Positions 1,926 to 63,340 of a stretch of 64,000 nucleotides of DNA are shown here, piece after piece. The first letter of the stretch is position 1. Every line of letters begins with the position of its first letter. The stretch is taken from NCBI GenBank assembly GCA_944325085.1, contig CALUYT010000047.1:1-64000 (forward strand), read 5' to 3'. This DNA is from Candidatus Gastranaerophilales bacterium (GTDB lineage: Bacteria; Cyanobacteriota; Vampirovibrionia; Gastranaerophilales; Gastranaerophilaceae). Both the position numbers and the translations under genes were made by a program. The notes under the pieces were generated by a model. It was given only the letters and a program-made list of their open reading frames with translations, was not told the origin of the DNA and did no database searches.

Positions 1926-1943
1926 TTTTAAATATCCTTATGT

Positions 1944-1949
1944 TATCAT
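1944..1949 (+). promoter_or_regulatory. -10 element of a predicted leaderless transcript (MATE gene)
   Basis: TATCAT ends six bases before the ATG at 1956 and there is no ribosome site between, so transcription should start at or next to the start codon. The -35 region is weak. Confidence 0.5.
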
Positions 1950-1955
1950 AGTCTT

Positions 1956-3293
1956 ATGTGCAAACATGACATGAAATATTATATAAAAGAACTTTTAACA
2001 ATAGCGGCCCCGATTATATTAGGGAATTTAGGTTTTATTTTAATCGGAGTAGGTGATGTTATAATTGCCGGTAGGCATTCTACAGATACATTTGCCGCAA
2101 TTAGTATCGCTACATCTATTGTTAATTGTATTGTTACATTTGGTTATGGCTTAGTTTCAGGGATATCTCCTTTATTGTCAAATTATAGAGGAGAAAGAAA
2201 ATCTATAAAAAAATATTTTTATCCTTCAATCCGATTTGCCATGATTTTGGCAACAATAACTGCTATATTTACAGTTTTATTTGTTCCGGTGATTCCAAAA
2301 ATTGGTTTTGAAGATAAGTTAGTTAAACCGATACAAGATTATATGTTAATCACTGCATTAAGTACTTTTGGAGCATATTTACATGCTTGTTTAAAAGAAT
2401 TTTTACAAGCTTTTGAAATTGTTTTATTTCCAAATATAGTAACAATGATATGTGTTTTCTTAAATGTAATATTAAATATAATATTTGTATTTGGGTTTGG
2501 TCCTATTCCATCGCTTGGTGTTATAGGGTTGGCTTTAGCAAGTTTGCTTGTTAGATATTTTATGGGATTTGCATTGTTAATATATTGTTATGTTAATATG
2601 TCATTCAAAAATTATCATGAAAAAGGGTATTATAAAAACTTGTTAAATATTGGGTTCCCTATTTCAATGGCTGTTTTTGTTGAATTTGTAGCATTTAATA
2701 GTATAGCCATTATTATGGGTAGGGTTTCAGGTGTTTTTGCAGCTGCGCAAAATTTAGTTTGTACATTAACAACAATATCATTTATGGTTCCTTTTGCTAT
2801 TTCTAATGCAATTGCAGTAAAAGTAGGGTTTGCAAATGGAGCTAAAAATTTACCTGATTTAAAGAAGTATTCCTTTGTAGGAACTGTCATGTCTGTTTTA
2901 TTTATGATGTGCAGTGCATTGATTTTTTCAAGTTTTCCAAAAGCAATTGTAGGAATTTTTACTGTTGATAAAAATCTATTTACTATAGCTATTCCTGTTA
3001 TGTATATTCTTTCTGTATTCCAAATTTTTGATGGATTGCAGATTGCATTAGCTGGAATATGTAAGGGAATTAAACAAACAAATATTGTATTGTTTGCAAA
3101 TTTTGTTGCTTATTGGTGTGTATCTATTCCTTTAGGTTGTTTTTTAGCTTTAAAATTGAAATTTAATTTGATTGGTTTTTGGTTAGGTTTGGTATTTGCT
3201 GCTATTATCTTGTGTTCTATAATGATTTATAAATTAAAAGTTTATTATGTTAACACATACAAAAAACAAGAACTCTATGAAGGTTCTTGTTAA
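1956..3293 (+). CDS. MATE family efflux transporter
   Basis: This is a 445-residue, about 12-helix integral membrane protein. The N-terminal ELLTIAAPIILGNLG and the two similar halves (about 10-190 and 230-420) match the MATE fold, in which Na+ or H+ entry drives export of cationic drugs or metabolites. The motif LGVIGLALASLLVRY in the middle and the loss of charged residues in the helices fit the NorM/DinF side of the family. The substrate is unknown. The ATG is preceded by a -10 box rather than a ribosome site. A second in-frame ATG lies five codons later. Confidence 0.9.
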   Translation: MCKHDMKYYIKELLTIAAPIILGNLGFILIGVGDVIIAGRHSTDTFAAISIATSIVNCIVTFGYGLVSGISPLLSNYRGERKSIKKYFYPSIRFAMILATITAIFTVLFVPVIPKIGFEDKLVKPIQDYMLITALSTFGAYLHACLKEFLQAFEIVLFPNIVTMICVFLNVILNIIFVFGFGPIPSLGVIGLALASLLVRYFMGFALLIYCYVNMSFKNYHEKGYYKNLLNIGFPISMAVFVEFVAFNSIAIIMGRVSGVFAAAQNLVCTLTTISFMVPFAISNAIAVKVGFANGAKNLPDLKKYSFVGTVMSVLFMMCSALIFSSFPKAIVGIFTVDKNLFTIAIPVMYILSVFQIFDGLQIALAGICKGIKQTNIVLFANFVAYWCVSIPLGCFLALKLKFNLIGFWLGLVFAAIILCSIMIYKLKVYYVNTYKKQELYEGSC

Positions 3294-3491: not shown

Positions 3492-3536
3492 TATACTATT
3501 TTCTACATTTATGTAAAAACAACATCACCTATTTGG

Positions 3537-3565
3537 TTGATTATTAATTTAGTTTAGATTATTAT
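3537..3565 (+). promoter_or_regulatory. Promoter of a predicted leaderless transcript (U32 gene)
   Basis: TTGATT at 3537-3542 and TATTAT at 3560-3565 are 17 bases apart; the -10 ends six bases before the ATG at 3572, with no ribosome site. Confidence 0.55.
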
Positions 3566-3571
3566 TGATTT

Positions 3572-4846
3572 ATGCGAAATGTTGAATTATTGTTGCCTGC
3601 AGGCAATTTAGAGAAATTAAAATATGCGGTTAGATATGGTGCTGATGCAGTATATTTAGGTGTGGTAGATTTCAGTTTGCGAGCAATGCGCAAAGGTGAA
3701 ATTATTACTTTAGAAAATTTAAAAATGGCAATAGATTTAGCACATAAGCTTGGAGCAAAAGCTTATATGACATTAAATATATTTGCTTTTAATTCTGATA
3801 TAAAACATTTGGAAGAATGCATGGAAGTTATTAAAGATGCTAATCCAGATGCTATATTAGTAAGTGATTTTGGAATTTTGCGTTTGTTAAAAAAATATAT
3901 GCCTGATACAGAATTGCATATTAGTACACAAACAAATATATTAAATTATGAATGTGTAAAATTTTGGCAAGATATGGGAGCAAAAAGAGTTGTATTAGCA
4001 AGAGAATTATCAATTCCTGAAATTGCTGAAATTAAAAAACAAGTCCCTGATATGGAGATAGAATGTTTTGTTCATGGTTCTCAATGTGTGTCATTTTCCG
4101 GCAGATGCTTGTTAAGTGATTATTTTACAAATGGAGAACGTAAAGCAAATCATGGTAATTGTTCTCAACCTTGCAGGTGGAGTTATAAGCTAGTAGAAAG
4201 TACTCGTCCTGGTCAATATTATGAAATTAATCAAGATGATAGAGGATCTCATATATTAAGTCCAAAAGATTTGTGTCTAGTAAAACATTTGAAAGAAATG
4301 ATTGATGCAGGAGTTGATTCATTTAAAGTTGAAGGACGCACAAAAAGTTTATATTATGTTTCGGCAGTTGCCAAGGCGTATCGTAATGCGATTGATGAAA
4401 TTATGCAAAATCCAAATGCTGATATGGAAAAGTATTTTCTTGAATTAAGAAAAGTTGGTAACAGAGGTTATACTACAGGTTTTGCATTAGGTGAAAATAT
4501 GCCAGATAGTTACAGTTATGATATTTCTAAAGGTTTAGCCGGTGCAGATTTCTTATTTGAATTTAGAGGTAAAAATAAATATTCGGATATCGTTTTTGAA
4601 TCGGCCCAAAATGATGATTTGTATTTTGTAAAAATAAAAAATAAAGTATTATTAAATGATGAAGTTGAGATAATTACTCCAAAGGAACAATTTGTTGCAA
4701 AAATTCTTGAAATATTAGATGAGAAAGGCGAAAAACTTGATGTTGCAAATACAAATGCCGATGTATATTTAAAACTTGATAGGGCGCCTTTAGATTATGA
4801 AGTTGCATTGGCAAGAACTATAGGGATAAAAGAGCATGTTTCTTAA
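3572..4846 (+). CDS. U32 family protein, tRNA/rRNA hydroxylation type (TrhP/RlhA-like)
   Basis: The 424-residue protein carries the U32 signature region: cysteines near residues 165, 171, 178, 195 and 199 in the pattern GRCLLSDY...NHGNCSQPCRW, likely ligating an iron-sulfur cluster. Family members formerly called peptidases (YegQ/TrhP, RlhA) act in prephenate-dependent hydroxylation of tRNA uridine-34 or of 23S rRNA cytidine. The N-terminal TIM-barrel begins ELLLPAGNLEKLKYAVRYGA. Which RNA is modified cannot be told from sequence alone; the single-domain length resembles TrhP. Its end overlaps the next gene by 11 bases, so the two are translationally coupled. Confidence 0.88.
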   Translation: MRNVELLLPAGNLEKLKYAVRYGADAVYLGVVDFSLRAMRKGEIITLENLKMAIDLAHKLGAKAYMTLNIFAFNSDIKHLEECMEVIKDANPDAILVSDFGILRLLKKYMPDTELHISTQTNILNYECVKFWQDMGAKRVVLARELSIPEIAEIKKQVPDMEIECFVHGSQCVSFSGRCLLSDYFTNGERKANHGNCSQPCRWSYKLVESTRPGQYYEINQDDRGSHILSPKDLCLVKHLKEMIDAGVDSFKVEGRTKSLYYVSAVAKAYRNAIDEIMQNPNADMEKYFLELRKVGNRGYTTGFALGENMPDSYSYDISKGLAGADFLFEFRGKNKYSDIVFESAQNDDLYFVKIKNKVLLNDEVEIITPKEQFVAKILEILDEKGEKLDVANTNADVYLKLDRAPLDYEVALARTIGIKEHVS

Positions 4847-8446: not shown

Positions 8447-10510
8447 ATGAACGCATTAATTTTAAGATTAAAAAATAGCATAGACCAAAAGATACTTAAC
8501 AGTATTGATAAAAAACTAATGGGGGATTACCATTTTGTACCAATTAGTATAAAAGATAATTTTCTATTCGTTGCTGTGTCTAAATCTTCTAATAAAGATG
8601 AAATAAATGCTATTTTGAAAAAATCATATCAACAATCTGTAAAATTTATGCTTGTTGGTGATGATGACTTAAAAGAATTATTGGGTTCATTTATGCCTAC
8701 TGAAAGTATTGCAACCGCACCAACTGCAGCTGTTGATGTTCCCGGAGATGCTCCTTCAGCTAATCCTACTGCAAATTCAGCTAATACTCCTCATGGAAAA
8801 TTAGGTGAGATGTTGGTTTCAAAAGGTATTATTTCAGAAGTTGATTTAATGAAAGCATTAGCGGCTTCAAAAAGAAAAAATACTCCAATTGGTTCAACAT
8901 TATTTGAAATGGGTTTGGTTTCTTTAGACCAATTAAAATCTGTATTGCACGATCAAACAGGTTATGATTTAGTTTCTGCTGATCAGTTGGTTGAGCAAAA
9001 GAAATTCGTAAACATCTTGCCTGAAGATTTTATTAAAGCTAATTCAGTAATCCCAATTTCTTCAGATGGTAAAACTCTTATTTTGGGTGTTGTTAAGCCT
9101 ATAAAAATGGATGTAATGAAAGAAATCATCTATTTGACAGGGCAGAATCCAAAACAATTGTTGATGACTCACTATGAGTTCCAGAACTCATTAAACACAT
9201 TCTTCTCTGCTCAGAAAAAACAAACTGATGAAATTCTTGAACAGATTAAAACTGAAACTCTTGAAACTGAAGAAGAAGCAACATTATGGGAACAAGTTGA
9301 CGCTGAATTACAAGATTCAACAGGTTCTGTTGCAAAATTTGTAAACCAAATTATTACAAACGGTATTGATAATAAAGTATCAGATATTCACATTGAGCCA
9401 AGACTATCTGGGTATATTGTTCGTTACAGAAAAGACGGTATGCTTCAAAAAGTTTTGGATGTTCCTGCAAAAGTTGAAACTTCTGTAATTGCTCGTTTTA
9501 AGGTTATGGCGAGAATGAACATTGCAGAAAATAGAAGACCTCAGGATGGTACGTTCTCAATATCTTATAAAGATTGTTCATACGACTTCCGTATTAACAC
9601 ACTTCCTGTTTCAGGAAAGGAAAAGGTCTGTATTCGTATTTTGGCACCAGCTGTATCTTTGGCATCAAATGACAAAGAAATTAAGCTTGTTGGTGCAAAT
9701 GAAAAAGATATTTTAAAAGTTAAACAAATGGTATCATGTCCAAATGGTATTATTTTAACATCAGGTCCTACTGGTTCTGGTAAAACTACAACTTTGTATT
9801 CAGTATTGAAAAGTTTGAATGATGAATCAGTTAACATTACTACTATTGAGGATCCGATAGAAATTAAATTGGAAGGTATCAACCAGTCACAAATTAACGC
9901 AAAAGCGGGTATTACATTTGCATCTTGTATGCGTGCAATCTTACGTCAAGACCCTGATATTATCCTTGTCGGTGAAATTCGTGACTATGAAACATTGGAA
10001 ATTGCAATTTCTGCTGCATTAACAGGTCACTTAGTATTAAGTACTGTTCACACCAACTCAGCAGCTGCAACTGTTACTCGTATGATTGAAATGGGTGCTA
10101 AAGACTATTTGGTATCTTCAACATTATCTGGTGTTATTGCGCAACGTCTTGTAAGAAAATTATGTGACGATTGTAAGGAAGAATATTATCCAACAAGGGA
10201 AGAAGCTTCTATGATAACAACAGACCCTGAAGAAATTGAAAAAATAATCAAAACTCCTATATACAGAGCAAAAGGATGTAACAAGTGTGGTTTCCAAGGT
10301 TATAAAGGCCGTTTAGGTGTTTATGAAATCATGCAAATTACAAAAGAAATTAAAAAACTTATTGCACAAGGTGCTCACGATTTGGAAATTGAAGAAAGTG
10401 CAGTAAATAATGGTATGACAACATTACAACGTTCTTGTTTGAATCATATTTTAAACGGACAAACCACTATTGAAGAATTTGTCAGAGTATTAGGTATGGC
10501 AGGCGAATAG
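8447..10510 (+). CDS. GspE/PilB family motor ATPase
   Basis: The 687-residue protein has a degenerate N-terminal MshEN-like region, a clear MshEN domain (about 120-265, GKLGEMLVSKGIISEVDLMK), and the AAA-type secretion ATPase: Walker A GPTGSGKTTT near 438-447, Walker B LVGEIRD, a His box STVHTN, and a zinc-binding tetracysteine (CDDC...CNKCG). It drives pilus or pseudopilus assembly from the cytoplasm. The MshEN domain binds cyclic di-GMP in relatives such as MshE, which is notable given the diguanylate cyclase at 47724. The start has no good ribosome site; a TATAAA lies just before it. Confidence 0.95.
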   Translation: MNALILRLKNSIDQKILNSIDKKLMGDYHFVPISIKDNFLFVAVSKSSNKDEINAILKKSYQQSVKFMLVGDDDLKELLGSFMPTESIATAPTAAVDVPGDAPSANPTANSANTPHGKLGEMLVSKGIISEVDLMKALAASKRKNTPIGSTLFEMGLVSLDQLKSVLHDQTGYDLVSADQLVEQKKFVNILPEDFIKANSVIPISSDGKTLILGVVKPIKMDVMKEIIYLTGQNPKQLLMTHYEFQNSLNTFFSAQKKQTDEILEQIKTETLETEEEATLWEQVDAELQDSTGSVAKFVNQIITNGIDNKVSDIHIEPRLSGYIVRYRKDGMLQKVLDVPAKVETSVIARFKVMARMNIAENRRPQDGTFSISYKDCSYDFRINTLPVSGKEKVCIRILAPAVSLASNDKEIKLVGANEKDILKVKQMVSCPNGIILTSGPTGSGKTTTLYSVLKSLNDESVNITTIEDPIEIKLEGINQSQINAKAGITFASCMRAILRQDPDIILVGEIRDYETLEIAISAALTGHLVLSTVHTNSAAATVTRMIEMGAKDYLVSSTLSGVIAQRLVRKLCDDCKEEYYPTREEASMITTDPEEIEKIIKTPIYRAKGCNKCGFQGYKGRLGVYEIMQITKEIKKLIAQGAHDLEIEESAVNNGMTTLQRSCLNHILNGQTTIEEFVRVLGMAGE

Positions 10511-12620: not shown

Positions 12621-12648
12621 ATGATTTGTACTATTTCTACCTTTGGGC

Positions 12649-12654
12649 TATAAT
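12649..12654 (+). promoter_or_regulatory. -10 element TATAAT directly before the TPR gene
   Basis: A perfect TATAAT ends nine bases before the ATG at 12664. There is no ribosome site, so this is probably another leaderless or near-leaderless start. Confidence 0.5.
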
Positions 12655-12663
12655 ATTTTTGCT

Positions 12664-14433
12664 ATGGAAGATAAAGAAATTGATAATATATATGAATTAA
12701 TAGATTCATCAAACTATGCTTTAGCTAAGGAAGCAATTTTAGATGTTTTACAAAAAGACTCTAAAGATATCGACGCTCAAAGATTGCTTGCATTATGTGA
12801 AGTAAATCTTGAAAATTATGATAATGCAAGAAAAATTTTGGAAGATGTCATAAAATATCGTCAAGAAGATGCTTTGTGTTGGTATTATTTAGGTTGTTGT
12901 TATGATAATTTGAATGATTTGATAGCTGCAAAGCATTCATATCTTCAAGTGTTGGAATTAAGACCGGAGTATCTTGATGCATATAAGAGTTTGGCTATTG
13001 TTTATATAAAGTCTGAAGAGTTTGAAAAAGCTATTGAGACAGCCAAAAAGGCTTTGGAATATTCAGGTGAAGATTATTCTGTTTATTATATTTTAGGTAC
13101 AGCTTGTATGGCTGGTAAAAAATTTGAAGAAAGTGTTGAATATATTGAAAAAGCTATTGAATTAAATCCTGAAAATTTACAGTTATATAATAATTTGGGT
13201 ACTTGTTATCTTACTATTGGAGATTTAAGCAAGGCTTTGGATACATATAATAGGGCTTTGAGTATTAATGATAAGGATTCATTGACTTATTTTAATATTG
13301 CTTCAATCCTTCAACTTCAAGATAAGCATAAAGAAGCATGTGAATATTTTTCTAAAGCACATGAATGTGAACCGGAAGAGGATAGTTACATTGTTGCTTG
13401 GGCTTTATCTGAAGTAAAAGCAGGTATGATAAAAGAGGCTATAGAGCATTATAAATATTTAGCTTCAGCATATCCTCAAAAAACAAATTATAAATATAAT
13501 TTAGCTTGTTGTTATCAAGTTATTGGGGAATATGATATTGCAATTTCTCTATTAAAGCAATTGGTAATGTTGAATCCAAAAGCTTCAAATATATTGAAAA
13601 AATTGGCATCAATATATATTTCGATTGGACAAATATCAAATGCTAAGGAAATTTATGAAAGAATAATAAAGCAAGGTTCTACTTCATACCAATTATATTA
13701 TGAGTTGGCAATACTTTGTGTAAAATCCGGTGATGTTGATCAAGCAGAGCAAGTATTGAAAAAGGTATGCAAATTGTGTCCTGAATTTGCACCGGCACAT
13801 AAGGATTTAGGTGTTATATATTTGAATAAAAGATTGTTTGATTATGCAAAAGATGAATTTGAACAAGCTTATTCATATGATCCGAATAATTATTCTGTAG
13901 TTTTGGAGTATGCAAATTATCTTCATTCAACATCTGATTTTGAAAAGGCTGATGAAATGTATCAAAAGGCTCTTGCGATAGATTCAGAAAATCCTAACGC
14001 ATTAGCTTTTTCAGCATTAAATAAAACACATTTAAAACAAATTGATATAGCCAAAGAACAAATAACAAAAGTTTTAGGTAAATGTTCGGATTCTGCTTTC
14101 TTATTATTTATTGCAGGTAGAATATTTCACTTAGCAGGTGATTATGAAACAGCAAAAATGTATTTGGTAAAAGCATACGAATTAGAAAAAATGCCAGATG
14201 TTCAAAATTTACTTGGACTTTGTTATTTTGAGTTAGGAAATTACGCTCAAGCTAAATCTATTTTTGAAAATATGTTAGAAAAAGCACCTTTGAATGTAAA
14301 TGTTTTATTAAATTTGGCAAAATGTTATGAAAAATTGAATGATAATGATAAAGCATTGGAATGTGCTGAAAAAATAGTAGAAAATTTCCCTGAGTGTGAA
14401 GATGCTCAAGAATTAATTAGAAAATTATCGTAA
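12664..14433 (+). CDS. Large tetratricopeptide repeat (TPR) protein
   Basis: The 589-residue protein is almost entirely TPR helices: I count about 15 units with the W-LG-Y-A-F-A-P spacing, for example ALCWYYLGCCYDNLNDLIAA and KAIELNPENLQLYNNLGTCY. There is no signal peptide or catalytic domain, so it is a cytoplasmic scaffold for protein-protein contact. I start it at the ATG because the upstream in-frame TTG at 12643 overlaps the -10 box. Partner unknown; TPR proteins next to pilus genes sometimes act in assembly, but it is separately transcribed here. Confidence 0.87.
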   Translation: MEDKEIDNIYELIDSSNYALAKEAILDVLQKDSKDIDAQRLLALCEVNLENYDNARKILEDVIKYRQEDALCWYYLGCCYDNLNDLIAAKHSYLQVLELRPEYLDAYKSLAIVYIKSEEFEKAIETAKKALEYSGEDYSVYYILGTACMAGKKFEESVEYIEKAIELNPENLQLYNNLGTCYLTIGDLSKALDTYNRALSINDKDSLTYFNIASILQLQDKHKEACEYFSKAHECEPEEDSYIVAWALSEVKAGMIKEAIEHYKYLASAYPQKTNYKYNLACCYQVIGEYDIAISLLKQLVMLNPKASNILKKLASIYISIGQISNAKEIYERIIKQGSTSYQLYYELAILCVKSGDVDQAEQVLKKVCKLCPEFAPAHKDLGVIYLNKRLFDYAKDEFEQAYSYDPNNYSVVLEYANYLHSTSDFEKADEMYQKALAIDSENPNALAFSALNKTHLKQIDIAKEQITKVLGKCSDSAFLLFIAGRIFHLAGDYETAKMYLVKAYELEKMPDVQNLLGLCYFELGNYAQAKSIFENMLEKAPLNVNVLLNLAKCYEKLNDNDKALECAEKIVENFPECEDAQELIRKLS

Positions 14434-15450: not shown

Positions 15451-15486
15451 TTAATAGTAATTGGTGCTAATATTTAACCATTGTGG

Positions 15487-15492
15487 TATAAT
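15487..15492 (+). promoter_or_regulatory. -10 element of a predicted leaderless transcript (mlaE-like gene)
   Basis: Perfect TATAAT ends six bases before the ATG at 15499; no ribosome site. It also shows that the TTG at 15481 cannot be the start. Confidence 0.6.
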
Positions 15493-15498
15493 TCTTTT

Positions 15499-16308
15499 AT
15501 GATAACTTTACAAAAATATTTAAGACAGTCCGCAACGTATAAAGTTTTTTCACAGCTTTTTATATTGTTTGCTGATTTTCTTGATACTTTGGGTAAGATT
15601 GCTCAATTGGGATTTCATGTTTTAAAGTGCATATTAAAAGGTGAAATCGAGTTTAAAGAATTGTTAGCACAATGTGACAGGTTTGGTGTTAGCTCTTTGC
15701 CGATAACATTATCAATTGTTGGCATGACTTCAATTATCGTTGCTTCGCAAGTAGCACATGAAATGGTAAAACAAGGCGGTGGCAATTTTGTTGGAATGTT
15801 AATGACAATTCTTATTGTAAGAGAAGTCGGAGCTATTATGTCCGGGTTTGCAATTACATCAATGATAGGGTCTTCTTTAGCGTCTGAACTTGCTACAATG
15901 CGAGTTACAGAACAAGTTGATGCTATTGATGTTTTGGGTGTAGATTCTATTAGGTATTTGTTTGTGCCAAGAGTTTTGTCAGGAGCTATAATGATGCCTT
16001 TTGTTGTTATTTTGGCTTCTGTTGTCGGAGTTTTATTAGGTGCTGTTACATCTGATATGTTTGCCGGATTGACTTATAGAGCTTATTTTGATTCTGCAGG
16101 TTTAGGCTTGTATATGAAAGATTTAAGCGTTTGTATTTTAAAAGCAATTGTTTTTGGTGCAACTATATCTTTAATTAGTTGTACTTGCGGATATTTTGCA
16201 TCAGGAGGTGCAAAAGGGGTTGGTTTAGCGACTACGAAGGCTGTTGTTTGGTCTTTTATTGCAATTGTTGTATGGGATATGATTTTTGCAGTTTTATTTT
16301 TCTTTTAA
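15499..16308 (+). CDS. MlaE family ABC transporter permease
   Basis: The 269-residue membrane protein has the MlaE/TTG2B fold: an N-terminal amphipathic helix, then five to six hydrophobic segments, with the family motif region REVGAIMSGFAITSMIGSSLASELATMRVTEQ (split by the coupling helix) and VDAIDVLGVD. It forms the inner membrane channel for moving phospholipids between membranes, so the cell should have an outer membrane. The ATPase gene follows 19 bases later. An MlaD/MCE substrate-binding partner is not next to it, which is unusual. Confidence 0.92.
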   Translation: MITLQKYLRQSATYKVFSQLFILFADFLDTLGKIAQLGFHVLKCILKGEIEFKELLAQCDRFGVSSLPITLSIVGMTSIIVASQVAHEMVKQGGGNFVGMLMTILIVREVGAIMSGFAITSMIGSSLASELATMRVTEQVDAIDVLGVDSIRYLFVPRVLSGAIMMPFVVILASVVGVLLGAVTSDMFAGLTYRAYFDSAGLGLYMKDLSVCILKAIVFGATISLISCTCGYFASGGAKGVGLATTKAVVWSFIAIVVWDMIFAVLFFF

Positions 16309-28966: not shown

Positions 28967-28972
28967 AATTAG

Positions 28973-28978
28973 ATTATA
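28973..28978 (-). promoter_or_regulatory. -10 element of a predicted leaderless transcript (PurD-like gene)
   Basis: Reverse-strand TATAAT ends six bases before the ATG; no ribosome site. Confidence 0.6.
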
Positions 28979-33852: not shown

Positions 33853-33884
33853 GCTGTTTTGTAATATGTATTTGTAATTTATGA

Positions 33885-33890
33885 TACAAT
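33885..33890 (+). promoter_or_regulatory. -10 element of a predicted leaderless transcript (rnhB)
   Basis: TACAAT ends seven bases before the ATG at 33898; no ribosome site. Confidence 0.5.
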
Positions 33891-33897
33891 TATTTTT

Positions 33898-35337: not shown

Positions 35338-35343
35338 TACTTT

Positions 35344-35349
35344 ATTTTA
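35344..35349 (-). promoter_or_regulatory. -10 element of a predicted leaderless transcript
   Basis: Reverse-strand TAAAAT ends six bases before the ATG of the 268-residue gene; no ribosome site. Confidence 0.5.
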
Positions 35350-36934: not shown

Positions 36935-37126
36935 CTTTGCTTTCCTTTATATTTCTAATCCATTACTATAAACTGTGTAATTCCTTTATCGGTGTTTTAA
37001 TAACTTTTCCACACAAAGCTCACCGACGCACGTTCGTATCATAAATGGTATAATAAATATATTTATTTTGCAAGTAAGGGTTAAGTTTTGTAATAAGTTG
37101 ATTGAAAAGGTTTTTTGATTTTATGT

Positions 37127-37132
37127 TATATT
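37127..37132 (+). promoter_or_regulatory. -10 element of a predicted leaderless transcript (49-residue gene)
   Basis: TATATT ends six bases before the ATG at 37139; TTGAAA at 37102-37107 could be the -35. No ribosome site. Confidence 0.5.
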
Positions 37133-37138
37133 AAGTTT

Positions 37139-49447: not shown

Positions 49448-49453
49448 ATAAAT

Positions 49454-49462
49454 ATTTTAGCA
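49454..49462 (-). promoter_or_regulatory. Extended -10 of a predicted leaderless transcript (TIGR02757 gene)
   Basis: Reverse-strand TG-C-TAAAAT ends six bases before the ATG; no ribosome site. Confidence 0.6.
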
Positions 49463-49529
49463 AAAAATTTTTAGAGTAAGTATTTTAAATTTGCAAAGGT
49501 TGTAAATTTTTAGTAAACTAATTTTTGTT

Positions 49530-55997: not shown

Positions 55998-56006
55998 TGC
56001 TAAAAT
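55998..56006 (+). promoter_or_regulatory. Extended -10 of a predicted leaderless transcript (nrnA)
   Basis: TG-C-TAAAAT ends six bases before the ATG at 56013. GGGA between them is too close to be a ribosome site. Confidence 0.6.
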
Positions 56007-56012
56007 CAGGGA

Positions 56013-57964: not shown

Positions 57965-57993
57965 TTGTAAAATTTTTATGTTCTTGATATGAT
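57965..57993 (+). promoter_or_regulatory. Promoter of a predicted leaderless transcript (prfA)
   Basis: TTGTAA at 57965-57970 and TATGAT at 57988-57993, spacer 17; the -10 ends six bases before the ATG at 58000, no ribosome site. Confidence 0.6.
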
Positions 57994-57999
57994 GCTGTT

Positions 58000-59082
58000 A
58001 TGAAAGATATGTTAGATAAAATATTGCAAATAGAGCAGAAATATAAAGAGTTGGGTGAAACTTTATCAGATCCGGCTGTAATACAAGATTATAATCGTTT
58101 TAGAGATTTATCAAAACAAAGAAAATCAATGGAAGAAACGGTTGAACTATATTATGAGTGGAAAAAGACCACAGAAGCTATAGAAGATGCCAAACAAATG
58201 CTTCATGAAGAAAAAGATGAAGAAATGCGTCAGTTTTTAAAGGCTGAAATCGAAAATAACGAAGCAAAACTTCCTGATTTTGAAGAAAGAATGAAAGTAT
58301 TGTTATTACCACGAGATCCAATGGATGACAAAGATATTATGTTAGAAATTCGTGGTGGCGCAGGTGGCGATGAAGCTAATATTTTCGCCGGAGATTTGAT
58401 GCGTATGTATTTAAGATACGCAGATAAGATGGGTTGGCAAACTCAAATTTTAAGTAAAACAGACTGTGAAGCCGGCGGAGTTTCAGAAGTTATTATCTCA
58501 ATGAAAGGCGATAGCATATATTCAAGATTGAAATATGAATCAGGCGTACACAGAGTACAAAGAGTTCCGGCAACAGAATCTCAAGGTAGGGTTCATACAT
58601 CAACAGCAACTGTAGCTGTAATGCCACAGGTAGATGATGTTGAAGTTAATTTGAATATGAATGATGTTGAAATTACAACAGCAAGATCTGGTGGCGCAGG
58701 TGGTCAAAATGTTAACAAAGTAGAAACTGCAGCCAGAGTATTTCACAAACCTACAGGGATAATGATTTTCTGTACAGAAGAACGTTCACAGTTGCAGAAT
58801 AAAGAGCGTGCTTTAGAAATTCTTAAAGCAAAACTTTATGATATGGAAGTTCAAAAACAAACAAAAGAAATTACAGATTTGAGACGTTCACAAGTTGGTA
58901 CAGGAGATAGAAGTGAACGTATAAGAACATATAATTTCCCTCAAGGTCGTTTAACAGACCACAGATTAAACCATAATTTGAATGTATGGACAGTAATCGA
59001 TGGGGAATTAGATGAACTTATTGATTTGTTGATTGAATATGACCAAAAATTGAAGTTAGAAAAATTAGCACAGGTAAGTTAG
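58000..59082 (+). CDS. prfA: Peptide chain release factor 1
   Basis: RF1 ends translation at UAA/UAG. The 360-residue protein has the anticodon-like [12 protein letters not shown], where E. coli RF1 has PAT at the tripeptide, and [16 protein letters not shown] with GGQ at 234-236. First gene of the prfA-ylxR-infB-rbfA-truB run. It has a leaderless-type promoter. No HemK/PrmC gene follows. Confidence 0.97.
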
Positions 59083-59090
59083 AGGTATTG

Positions 59091-59345
59091 ATGACAGAAA
59101 GACGTTGTGTTAGTTGTTGGCAAATAAAAAATAGAGAAGAACTAATTAAAATTACAGCAGATAACACAAGTGGTGATGTCATTATAAATCCGAATTCTGT
59201 AACATTTGGCAGATCAGCATATCTTTGCTATAATAAATCTTGTATAGAATCGGCTTTTAAGAAAAATAAATTAAGCAAACATTTGAAAGCATCTGTACCA
59301 AGCGAATTGAAAGGACAGTTACTAGATGAGTTACGAAACAGTTAG
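59091..59345 (+). CDS. YlxR family RNA-binding protein
   Basis: The 84-residue protein has RRCVSCWQIKNREELIKI and FGRSAYLCYNKSCIESA, as in YlxR/DUF448 proteins, small RNA-binding or RNase-P-related factors next to infB. AGAGGTA ribosome site before the ATG at 59091; the TTG at 59088 is an alternative. The stop overlaps the start of infB. Confidence 0.9.
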   Translation: MTERRCVSCWQIKNREELIKITADNTSGDVIINPNSVTFGRSAYLCYNKSCIESAFKKNKLSKHLKASVPSELKGQLLDELRNS

Positions 59346-61848
59346 AATAAGTGAATTAGCAAAAGAACTAGGGCTTCAAAGTAAAGAAGTTATTGAGAAG
59401 TTCGCACAATTGGGTGTTACTAATAAAACTCACTCAAGTACTGTTACTGTAGATCAGATAGCAAGATTAAAGGATTTTATAGCAAATGGTGGCGTAAAGA
59501 AAACTCAAAAGCCAAAAGCTTTTGTTGTAAAAAAAGCAAAACCGGCTGAACCTGTTGCGCAGGAAGCTAAAGAAGAAGCTCCTAAACAAGTAGAAAAGGC
59601 TTCATCCGCTTCAAAATCTGTAAAAATAGAAAAAGTTGAAAGACCAAAAGTTGAAGTTGTTAAGGCTCCAAGCAGATTGGAAATTGTTCGCAGAGCACCT
59701 AAAAAGCCTGTAACTGAAGCAAGTGAACCTGCAAAGAAACCAGCTTCAAAGCAAGGTCAAAGTGAAGATAAAAAATTTCAATCAAAAGGCGAAAAGTCTC
59801 AAAATTCAAAGTTTGCAAAAACAGATAAAACATCAAATGATAGTAAAGACTTTTCAGGTAAAAAGCCAATTCAACGTCGTATAATACCGCAAGAAATATA
59901 TGATAATAAATCAGGTTCTTCAAAACGTCGTGGTGATAATCATAAGAAAGATAAAGATTTTTCATCTAAAAAAGAAGAACAAGAAAGAATTTCATTAGAA
60001 AAAGCTGCAGCTCAGCATCATAAGAAAAAAGTTCAAAAGGCAGAAGCTGTTGAAGAAGTAAAACAAATTGTTGTTAATCAGGCTATGACAATTTCTGAAT
60101 TGTCAGAAAAAATAAAGAAAACACCGGCTGAAATTGTTAAGTTTTTAATGTTAAACGGTGTAATGGCTACAGTTAATCAACTTATTGATGTTGATGTAAT
60201 TAAAAAAGTGTGTGCCGAATATAATTTGGAAGTTTTAGAAGAAGATTTAGATGCATACATTGAACAAGAATTAGAAAAAGAAGAAAAGGCAAAAGCTTTA
60301 TCTGAAGTTGATAAAAAATTATTAAAAAAACGTGCTCCGGTTATTAGTATTATGGGACACGTTGACCATGGTAAAACAACATTATTAGATAGTATCAGAG
60401 CTTCAAAACATAAAATTGTTGCTACAGAAGTTGGTGGTATTACTCAATCAATAGGTGCTTATACAGTATATGTAGGCGATAACAACGATAGAAAGATTGT
60501 CTTTTTAGATACCCCGGGTCACGAAGCTTTTACAGAAATGAGAGCTCGTGGTGCTAAAGCTACTGATATTGCAATTTTGGTTGTTGCAGCAGATGATGGT
60601 ATAATGCCTCAAACCATTGAAGCTATAAACCATGCTAAAGCTGCTGAAATTCCTATTATTGTTGCGGTTAACAAAATAGATAAGCCTGGTGCAAATCCTG
60701 ATAAAGTTTTACAGCAATTAACAGAACATGGTTTAGTACCTGAAGATTGGGGTGGCGATACTATTACAGTTAGAGTATCTGCATTGCAAGGTACAGGTAT
60801 TGATGAATTATTGGAATATATTTTATTGGTTGCAGATGTACAAGACTTGAAAGCTAATCCGAAAGCAGAGGCTTCTGGTGTTGTTATTGAAGCAAACCTA
60901 GATAAAGGAAAAGGTCCGGTTGCAACTTTATTAGTTCAAAATGGTACATTAAGAGCTGGTAATTGTATCGTTGTTGGTACAGCTTGTGGTAGAGTTCGTG
61001 CATTGTTATCAGATAGTGGTGAACGTATTCAAAAAGCTGAACCTTCTACACCGGTTGAAATTTTAGGTTTATCTGAGGTTCCTCAGGCTGGTGATTATTT
61101 TGAAGTTGTAAAAAATGAAAAAGAAATGAAAGCCATTGTAACAGAAAGAAAAGAAAAAGAACGTGATAAACGTTTAGAAGCTATGTTACCGGCTCATATC
61201 AGAAGAGAATCTGTTGCAGGAGATGATGATATTCCGCAATTGAATTTAATTATTAAAGCTAATACACACGGTTCAGCTGAAGCTGTTGCTCAAGCTATTG
61301 CTCAAGTAGAGTCTAAAGAAATTACAACTAAAATTATACACGTTGGTGTTGGTGACATTTCAGAGGCAGATGTTATGTTGGCTTCAGCTTCAAATGCATT
61401 GATTTTAGGATTTACAGTTAAAGAAGATTCTAACGCATTAGCATCTGCTGAGCGTGAAGGTGTAACAATTAAGAAATATGATATTATTTATCAATTGTTA
61501 GAAGATATCGAAAAAACATTGTTATCATTATTAGAACCTGAAGTAAAAGAAGTTGAACTTGGTAAGGCTGAAGTTAGACAAGTATTTACTATAGGCAAAA
61601 CAAATAAAATTGCAGGTTGTTACGTCTTAGAAGGTAAGATTGTTCGTTCAAAAGATGCTGTATTATATAGAAATGGTGAAGAAATCTTCCGTGGTGCAAT
61701 TGATCAGCTAAAACGCTTCAAAGATGATGTAAAAGAAGTTGCACAAGGTTTTGAATGCGGTATTTCGTTTAGTAAATTTAACGATATTCAAGAAGGCGAT
61801 ATCATCGAAGTTTCAACAAAAGAAGAAGTTGAAAGAAAGAGTCTGTAG
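59326..61848 (+). CDS. infB: Translation initiation factor IF-2
   Basis: IF-2 places initiator tRNA on the 30S. The 840-residue protein has an N-terminal IF2_N module (VRISELAKELGLQSKEVIEK), a long Lys/Glu/Ala/Pro linker (about 60-235), a second IF2_N (MTISELSEKIKKTPAEIVKF), and the GTPase core with GHVDHGKTT (about 344-352), DTPGH and NKIDKPG, followed by domains II-IV. It overlaps ylxR by 20 bases. The linker varies between species. Confidence 0.97.
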   Translation: MSYETVRISELAKELGLQSKEVIEKFAQLGVTNKTHSSTVTVDQIARLKDFIANGGVKKTQKPKAFVVKKAKPAEPVAQEAKEEAPKQVEKASSASKSVKIEKVERPKVEVVKAPSRLEIVRRAPKKPVTEASEPAKKPASKQGQSEDKKFQSKGEKSQNSKFAKTDKTSNDSKDFSGKKPIQRRIIPQEIYDNKSGSSKRRGDNHKKDKDFSSKKEEQERISLEKAAAQHHKKKVQKAEAVEEVKQIVVNQAMTISELSEKIKKTPAEIVKFLMLNGVMATVNQLIDVDVIKKVCAEYNLEVLEEDLDAYIEQELEKEEKAKALSEVDKKLLKKRAPVISIMGHVDHGKTTLLDSIRASKHKIVATEVGGITQSIGAYTVYVGDNNDRKIVFLDTPGHEAFTEMRARGAKATDIAILVVAADDGIMPQTIEAINHAKAAEIPIIVAVNKIDKPGANPDKVLQQLTEHGLVPEDWGGDTITVRVSALQGTGIDELLEYILLVADVQDLKANPKAEASGVVIEANLDKGKGPVATLLVQNGTLRAGNCIVVGTACGRVRALLSDSGERIQKAEPSTPVEILGLSEVPQAGDYFEVVKNEKEMKAIVTERKEKERDKRLEAMLPAHIRRESVAGDDDIPQLNLIIKANTHGSAEAVAQAIAQVESKEITTKIIHVGVGDISEADVMLASASNALILGFTVKEDSNALASAEREGVTIKKYDIIYQLLEDIEKTLLSLLEPEVKEVELGKAEVRQVFTIGKTNKIAGCYVLEGKIVRSKDAVLYRNGEEIFRGAIDQLKRFKDDVKEVAQGFECGISFSKFNDIQEGDIIEVSTKEEVERKSL

Positions 61849-61856
61849 GTAATTTT

Positions 61857-62099
61857 GTGATTAAAAAAATTGACGGTGCAACTAATATAACTAAACAGGT
61901 AAGAACTGTAGGAAATCAAGTACGAAGTAATATTTCTAAGGTTCCAAAAGTAGGACAAGATTTTCCAAAAATACAAAATGAAAATAAGTTGTCTAATACT
62001 ATAGAAGTTATAAAAGATGTTGTATTTGAGATGTTTCCAAAATTAGATCCAGAGTACAAACAAGTATATAAAAATTTTGATAAAAAGGTGCAAATATGA
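61857..62099 (+). CDS. 80-residue protein inserted between infB and rbfA
   Basis: A GTG-started open frame encodes 80 residues: MIKKIDGATNITKQVRTVGN, then QVRSNISKVPKVGQDFPKIQ, ending KNFDKKVQI. It lies nine bases after infB and its stop overlaps the rbfA start (ATGA), so it is translated in the operon. It is basic in the first half. The gene is not part of standard infB-rbfA pairs, so it is lineage-specific; a role in ribosome assembly is a guess from context. Confidence 0.7.
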   Translation: MIKKIDGATNITKQVRTVGNQVRSNISKVPKVGQDFPKIQNENKLSNTIEVIKDVVFEMFPKLDPEYKQVYKNFDKKVQI

Positions 62100-62440
62100 C
62101 ATTAAGAAATGAACGAGTAAGAAAAGAATTGATGCGCGATATTTCTGAAATTTTGAGAAAAGAAATTCGAGGTTTAGAGGGTGTTGTTTCTATAGTAGAT
62201 GTAGAAGTGGCACATGACAATTCTTTTGCTAAAGTAATTTATAGTGTTTTAGGTTCTGCTGAACAAGTTGAAAAATCAAAAGAAGTTATAGAAAAAAATA
62301 CTTCAAAGATAAGATATGAAGTTGGTAAAAGGCTTCGTTTGAGATTGACACCTGAATTAAGATTTATATATTCTAATGGTTTGGAAGAAGGTGCAAGAGT
62401 TACCGAATTAATTAATAAAATTTCTCGAGGAGAAATATAG
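62096..62440 (+). CDS. rbfA: Ribosome-binding factor A
   Basis: RbfA helps mature the 16S 5' end. The 114-residue protein has RVRKELMRDISEILRKEIR, VSIVDVEVAHDNSFAKVIYS and VGKRLRLRLTPELRFIYS. It starts within the stop of the preceding 80-residue gene (ATGA overlap). Confidence 0.96.
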   Translation: MTLRNERVRKELMRDISEILRKEIRGLEGVVSIVDVEVAHDNSFAKVIYSVLGSAEQVEKSKEVIEKNTSKIRYEVGKRLRLRLTPELRFIYSNGLEEGARVTELINKISRGEI

Positions 62441-62455
62441 TCAAGGATAAGTGTT

Positions 62456-63340
62456 ATGTCCTCGGAAAGTAATCAAATGTTTGGATTTTTAAATATATAT
62501 AAACCGGCCGGAATGACTTCACATGATGTCGTTTCCAGATTGAGACGTGTAACTAAAATAAAACAAATTGGACATACCGGTACATTAGATCCTTTTGCTA
62601 CAGGAGTTTTACCTGTTTGTATAGGCAAGGCAACAAGGCTTATTGAATATTTGAAAGAGGATAAAGAATATATTGCAACCGTGCAATTTGGTAAAAATAC
62701 AACAACATATGATATTGAAGGTGATGTTGTTGAAGCTTTTGATAAGAAAATAACAAAAGATGAATTGTTGGATTGTTTGAAACTGTTTGAAGGTGAAATT
62801 TCTCAGATGCCTCCAATATATTCTGCAATAAAAGTCAATGGTAAAAAATTATATGATTATGCAAGAGCTGGAGAAAGTGTAGAGATAAAACCTAGAAAAG
62901 TAAATATCTCAAAATTAGAGTTGATTGATTTTGATGAAAAAACTCAGAGTGCAAAAGTTCTTGTAGCATGCTCAAAAGGAACGTATATAAGGTCTCTTGC
63001 GTATGATTTGGGCAAAAAAATGTCTTGTGGAGGTTTTTTAACAGCTTTAGAACGTACAAAGTCCGGAGGTTTTAATATCTCTAATTCTGTAAAATTAGAA
63101 GATCTTGTTGAAAAATCTGATGTATGTAAAAATCTGATAAATCCTTTAGATATAATGGATTTGCCGTGTTATGAGCTTTCTGAATCAGATAAACAAAAGG
63201 TTTCAAATGGTATGAGTATCCGATGTGATAATCTACACCATTTGGATATTGTTTTTTTGATTTATGGTGGTAAAATACATGCTGTAGGTAAGATAGAGCA
63301 AAATAAAATTTTGGTCAAAAAAGTATTTGAGGTATTATGA
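62456..63340 (+). CDS. truB: tRNA pseudouridine(55) synthase
   Basis: TruB makes pseudouridine 55 in the tRNA T-loop. The 294-residue protein has IYKPAGMTSHDVV, GTLDPFATGVLPVCIGKATR with catalytic Asp45, and YSAIKVNGKKLYDYAR. The C-terminal PUA-like segment is present (VFLIYGGKIHAVGKIEQ). AAGGATAA ribosome site. The stop overlaps the next ATG. Confidence 0.96.
   Translation: MSSESNQMFGFLNIYKPAGMTSHDVVSRLRRVTKIKQIGHTGTLDPFATGVLPVCIGKATRLIEYLKEDKEYIATVQFGKNTTTYDIEGDVVEAFDKKITKDELLDCLKLFEGEISQMPPIYSAIKVNGKKLYDYARAGESVEIKPRKVNISKLELIDFDEKTQSAKVLVACSKGTYIRSLAYDLGKKMSCGGFLTALERTKSGGFNISNSVKLEDLVEKSDVCKNLINPLDIMDLPCYELSESDKQKVSNGMSIRCDNLHHLDIVFLIYGGKIHAVGKIEQNKILVKKVFEVL

Follow-up and report, generated by a model that had tools for sequence, protein, structure and literature searches.

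Ten genes in the window, the 64,000-nucleotide stretch analyzed here, and the wider class that they represent are very probably leaderless or carry leaders of only 1–4 nt. In the proposed mechanism, a housekeeping sigma-70-type promoter (TTGaca-N17-TGnTATAAT) would stand at such a distance that RNA polymerase begins the transcript with the A of the ATG, and the ribosome would initiate on the bare 5′-AUG without a Shine-Dalgarno (SD) sequence, beside a majority of genes that use one. A -10 hexamer abutting the start codon implies that the mRNA should begin at the AUG without a ribosome-binding leader; the transcription start at the A of the ATG is what we infer from promoter position, and initiation on the bare AUG would follow a mode known from other bacteria. 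Computationally, the promoter anatomy, exact spacing, lack of an SD, restriction to ATG, conservation of hexamer and spacing among orthologs, and a switch at prfA were all observed, and the leaderless reading put forward in the preliminary description draws its support from the distance histogram, the SD exclusion, the orthologs, and prfA. Individual genes may have further promoters upstream. The sites in the window are as follows, where the N-number (e.g., N6) gives the bases between the end of the -10 hexamer and the start codon:

1941..1955, forward strand: extended -10 TGTTATCAT (hexamer TATCAT) with N6, MATE transporter gene (1956-3293)
3537..3571, forward strand: -35 TTGATT, 17-bp spacer, -10 TATTAT, and N6, U32/TrhP-like gene (3572-4846)
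12649..12663, forward strand: -10 TATAAT with N9, near-leaderless gene with ATG 12664, replacing TTG 12643
15484..15498, forward strand: extended -10 TGGTATAAT (hexamer TATAAT) with N6, MlaE-type permease gene, ATG 15499
28967..28978, reverse strand: -10 TATAAT with N6, PurD-like gene, ATG 28966
33882..33897, forward strand: extended -10 TGATACAAT (hexamer TACAAT) with N7, rnhB, ATG 33898
35338..35349, reverse strand: -10 TAAAAT with N6, gene for a 268-aa protein, ATG 35337
37124..37138, forward strand: extended -10 TGTTATATT (hexamer TATATT) with N6, gene for a 49-aa conserved protein, ATG 37139
49448..49462, reverse strand: extended -10 TGCTAAAAT (hexamer TAAAAT) with N6, DUF2400/TIGR02757 gene, ATG 49447
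49514..49529, forward strand: TAAACT with N10 and no SD, near-leaderless start of gene 49530
55998..56012, forward strand: extended -10 TGCTAAAAT (hexamer TAAAAT) with N6, gene for an NrnA-like DHH protein, ATG 56013
57965..57999, forward strand: -35-like TTGTAA, 17-bp spacer, TGATATGAT (hexamer TATGAT), and N6, prfA promoter, ATG 58000
58000..59082, forward strand: prfA (release factor 1, RF1), predicted leaderless start

Checking of the coordinates in the sequence bore out the earlier claim of a -10 hexamer six bases before the ATG at nine genes and seven bases before it at rnhB. The accompanying claim, that these ten lack an SD and that most other genes in the window have one, agreed with the duplex energies, which ranged from +1.4 to -2.9 kcal/mol at the ten sites (i.e., no SD) and from -4 to -10 kcal/mol at most of the remaining genes. 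The window genes are thus mostly of two types, one with an SD of that strength and no N6 box, and the other with an N6/N7 box of 3.7–7.7 bits and no SD. Seven of the ten sites carry the TGn extension, which is absent at 3572, 28966, and 35337. Among the products, that of rnhB was identified by family models as RNase HII; the best NCBIfam model for the U32 protein was TrhP, with a score under the model cut-off, and the PurD-like protein likewise scored under the purD cut-off, while model searches gave no family match for the 268-aa and 49-aa proteins. Further boxes at 8447 (TAAAGT at N6) and 5570 were rejected, as relatives do not keep them.

The draft genome comprises 65 contigs (1.89 Mb, 30% GC), of which the window is contig 47; 40 further stretches of the same genome, 563 kb in all with the window excluded, served as a held-out sample. 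Genes were called with our own hexamer coding-potential caller, taking the 5′-most ATG as the start, blind to promoter and SD; -10 boxes were scored with an E. coli matrix plus 2 bits for TGn, and SDs by anti-SD duplex energy. A check for the organism's own anti-SD tail found no 16S gene in this MAG. The histogram of -10-to-start distances proposed in the preliminary description gave a peak one base wide at six bases: -10 boxes of at least 5 bits stood at N6 in 26 held-out genes (n = 497) and in 0–5 at every other distance from N0 to N15, against an N6 expectation of ∼1.75 (Poisson 9.6e-22; 383 held-out genes with free upstream sequence). TAnAAT alone occurred 23 times at N6 vs. 0–8 times at distances 0–5 and 7–15. 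The peak was absent at 1815 intergenic non-start ATGs (decoys) and at genes <25 bp behind a neighbor.

Boxes at N6 largely excluded an SD (6 SD/38 non-SD against 358/160 elsewhere, p = 4e-13), an exclusion not seen for boxes at N25 or N30. Because boxes at N7–N10 also tend to be SD-less, the class includes mRNAs with leaders of about 1–4 nt. By start codon, N6 boxes preceded 46/740 ATG, 1/88 GTG, and 4/269 TTG starts, the latter two at background, and leaderless GTG/TTG starts, which were considered, were rejected for want of a peak; AUG is the preferred 5′-end start codon of leaderless mRNAs. At a threshold of at least 3 bits, 55 N6 boxes were found vs. a background of ∼12 (n = 562, window plus held-out genes), and this excess puts the leaderless class at about 8% of genes, or roughly one in 12. 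The window holds somewhat more of these genes than the held-out sample, but the difference is not significant (9/65 vs. 35/497, Fisher p = 0.08). Members of the class serve assorted housekeeping functions (QueF, Der, a pterin-binding enzyme, a LysR regulator, and others), and a plain count of 20 leaderless genes scanned outside the window found no ribosomal protein gene among them. Genes for IF3 and S21 are present in the genome.

Both hexamer and spacing were retained in orthologs. TGTGNTANNAT-N6-ATG preceded NrnA in 17/17 relatives, and of the 26 distinct upstream regions from U32 orthologs, 23 had the box at N6; the sequences inspected by eye showed TTGATT 17 bp above the -10. The N6 box was also kept in the orthologs of the MlaE (4/4), PurD-like (4/4), and 268-aa (3/3) proteins and was present in the MATE orthologs of genomes G063 and G138. 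For rnhB and the 49-aa protein, three of four relatives had the box at threshold, and the MGQDYKKLLN start of the latter was preserved in three relatives. Column information for prfA and NrnA was ∼2 bits across the hexamer and TG, and the base at -1 was fixed, whereas most positions between box and ATG carried 0–1 bits. The preliminary description had also argued that the spacing fixes two start codons. ATG 15499 stood over TTG 15481, as relatives start there and have the N6 box; ATG 12664 stood over 12643, and relatives agree, but its box departs from the N6 spacing: the window and two relatives have it at N9, and a single further relative at N6. These two MAG gene starts are thereby corrected from 15481 to 15499 and from 12643 to 12664. 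Most relatives of gene 49530 have a comparably short box distance.

This conservation bears on the alternative of a secondary promoter at N6 and a main transcript that comes from further upstream with a leader translated without an SD. Read-through would be possible for the 17 of 35 leaderless genes outside the window that lie behind a co-directed neighbor; however, family-wide conservation of N6 would be needless for such leaders, and the divergent neighbor of the NrnA gene is only 39 bp away. We consider this arrangement improbable as an account of the class, and favor the N6 box as the promoter of a leaderless mRNA.

The anatomy of the boxes matches a promoter. TGn was present in 24 of 44 N6 boxes, and the -35 score peaked at a 17-bp spacer, most strongly in promoters without TGn, where it averaged +0.17 at 17 bp but about -3.7 at most other spacings. 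A T stood at -1 in 32/38 N6 genes vs. 190/364 SD genes (p = 1e-4). A sigma-70 promoter of textbook geometry with its +1 at the A of the ATG is expected to show these features, and their combination would fit such a promoter. At the U32/TrhP-like gene, an imperfect palindrome, ATCACCTATTTGGTTGAT (3524-3541), overlaps the -35 and is strongly conserved among the U32 orthologs of the family; it looks like a candidate operator. The only other site in the genome, C57:26207-26224, apparently lies directly after the stop codon of another gene.

The clearest evidence for the leaderless reading comes from prfA. The window prfA is up to 98% identical to records labeled Candidatus Gastranaerophilales/Melainabacteria, placing the organism in Candidatus Gastranaerophilales; a few matching records are labeled otherwise ("Muribaculaceae," "Brachyspira"), which may reflect binning or labeling errors. 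The same promoter, of the TGTTCTTGTTATAAT or TGTTTTTGTTATACT type, was compared across 79 genomes of the family. It lies close to the ATG without an SD in 57 (N6-7 in 53 and N9 in four) and at N20-28 in the other 22, every one of which has a GAGGT or AAGGGG SD (-7 to -8 kcal/mol); none of the 79 has it at N10-19. In a prfA+infB tree, one change suffices for this distribution (FastTree supports, which are local only). The leaderless state is derived rather than ancestral, because prfA is SD-led in nearly all the other genera, other families, and sampled cyanobacteria. When outgroups were added, three genomes with prfA behind another gene fell inside the leaderless clade, as placed by prfA alone; these would be one return to the leadered state, or a misplacement. 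A spacing of about nine bases (a leader of roughly three nt) without an SD recurs beside the N6 class, at 12664 and 49530 in the window and at prfA of L051, L053, L056, and L062.

The prfA orthologs also speak to the idea that the AT-rich hexamer acts as a signal in translation, on a leadered, SD-less mRNA, rather than as a promoter. The genes in question do lack an SD, and AT-rich non-canonical sites exist in the FCB group (PMC9581028), yet a signal of this kind accounts poorly for the TGn extension, the -35 at 17 bp, the ATG-only use, or the T at -1. In the leadered prfA orthologs, moreover, the same box stands at N20-28 above an SD, a position most naturally read as that of a promoter. We give this idea very little credence and retain the leaderless promoter.

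Downstream of prfA, infB starts at 59326 and is followed at 62456 by a gene that we presume from its motifs to be truB-like (region 58000-63340); the genes downstream have SDs, with the leaderless prfA at their head. The infB product, IF2, is an initiation factor that favors leaderless mRNAs. A speculative extension, to which we assign a low probability, is that leaderless starts are a stable, selected class gained gene by gene, that the prfA SD leader was lost once in an ancestor within the family and the N6-9 spacing kept in 57 genomes, and that the output of RF1 and perhaps IF2 would respond to leaderless-initiation capacity. Among other prfA matches, L170 (G106) and L174 (G096) of family f2 each contain one TAG, which a match extending beyond the stop codon, a frameshift, or recoding could explain, and a genome of family f37 (G159) has two prfA copies (L222 and L249, on C16 and C45), 81% and 76% identical to the window prfA, likely owing to a contaminating contig.

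Beyond this family, per-group samples were small (60–240 kb). The family f36 genome G150 had five boxes at N6 vs. 0.17 expected. Family f2 of the class (G106, G096, G077) peaked at N6-8, with an SD in just a third of genes and a box of at least 4 bits at N6-8 in 32 of 164 genes with free upstream sequence; after background subtraction, its leaderless share is perhaps roughly 15%. The peak was not detected in the samples from G151, G156, G157, and G148, nor in the sampled Cyanobacteriia of low and mid GC, including fairly AT-rich ones (35.5% GC). Chance, namely that TAnnnT often falls near an ATG in 30% GC DNA, where this hexamer alone gives ∼8–30 background matches per position (369 genes), is refuted by both the held-out sample and the decoy ATGs (26 vs. 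∼1.8 at N6 only, and a flat decoy profile), as well as by the 35.5% GC cyanobacteria and the conserved box, and is left with a negligible probability; the earlier claim of a fixed spacing rather than an AT-rich coincidence is upheld.

The same arrangement has been predicted in many bacteria (PMC3160421, PMC9581028). In Deinococcus-Thermus, where it is established and has been tested experimentally, leaderless genes with TANNNT ∼6–7 bp upstream make up ∼30% of ORFs (PMC12340547, which cites de Groot 2014 on such genes in this group), compared with ∼8% here. The position of the motif, the lack of an RBS, and the presence of SD-led genes in the same genome are shared, and the absence of a reported pathway bias there is a further likeness; unlike in Deinococcus-Thermus, the motif here is the more complete TGnTATAAT of low-GC type, in many cases preceded by a -35, and the peak spans a single base. 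The leaderless class of GeneMarkS-2 (Lomsadze 2018, as summarized in PMC9581028) is a close known system, and the TA-led/leaderless genes described across bacteria by Zheng et al. (2011; PMC3160421) belong to the same signal class. In the portions of that study consulted, SD-to-TA substitution between orthologs is described in Actinobacteria and Streptococcaceae, many atypical genes are ascribed to Cyanobacteria, and Melainabacteria were not encountered; its substitution distance has no direction and the overall trend it infers is a decrease, whereas prfA here represents a gain with a direction. Our literature search found no paper combining "leaderless" and "Melainabacteria." The mechanism is therefore known (Deinococcus, Actinobacteria), the lineage is new, and the prfA ortholog switch is unusually clean.

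With these genomes, a mostly uncultured class of gut bacteria, non-photosynthetic relatives of cyanobacteria, would join the users of leaderless genes. Such starts would be misplaced by gene finders that look only for SDs, and constructs for expression in these bacteria could do without an RBS. prfA offers a natural experiment in which one promoter and one protein start occur in two initiation states across 79 genomes, with an inferable direction (SD-led to leaderless). Elsewhere in the same genome (contig C14, L110:3464-3507), only 42 bp separate the ATGs of two divergent genes, each of which has TGnTATNAT exactly six bases before its ATG; they form a putative back-to-back leaderless pair, and a similar pair occurs in family f2 (L171:13240/13283).
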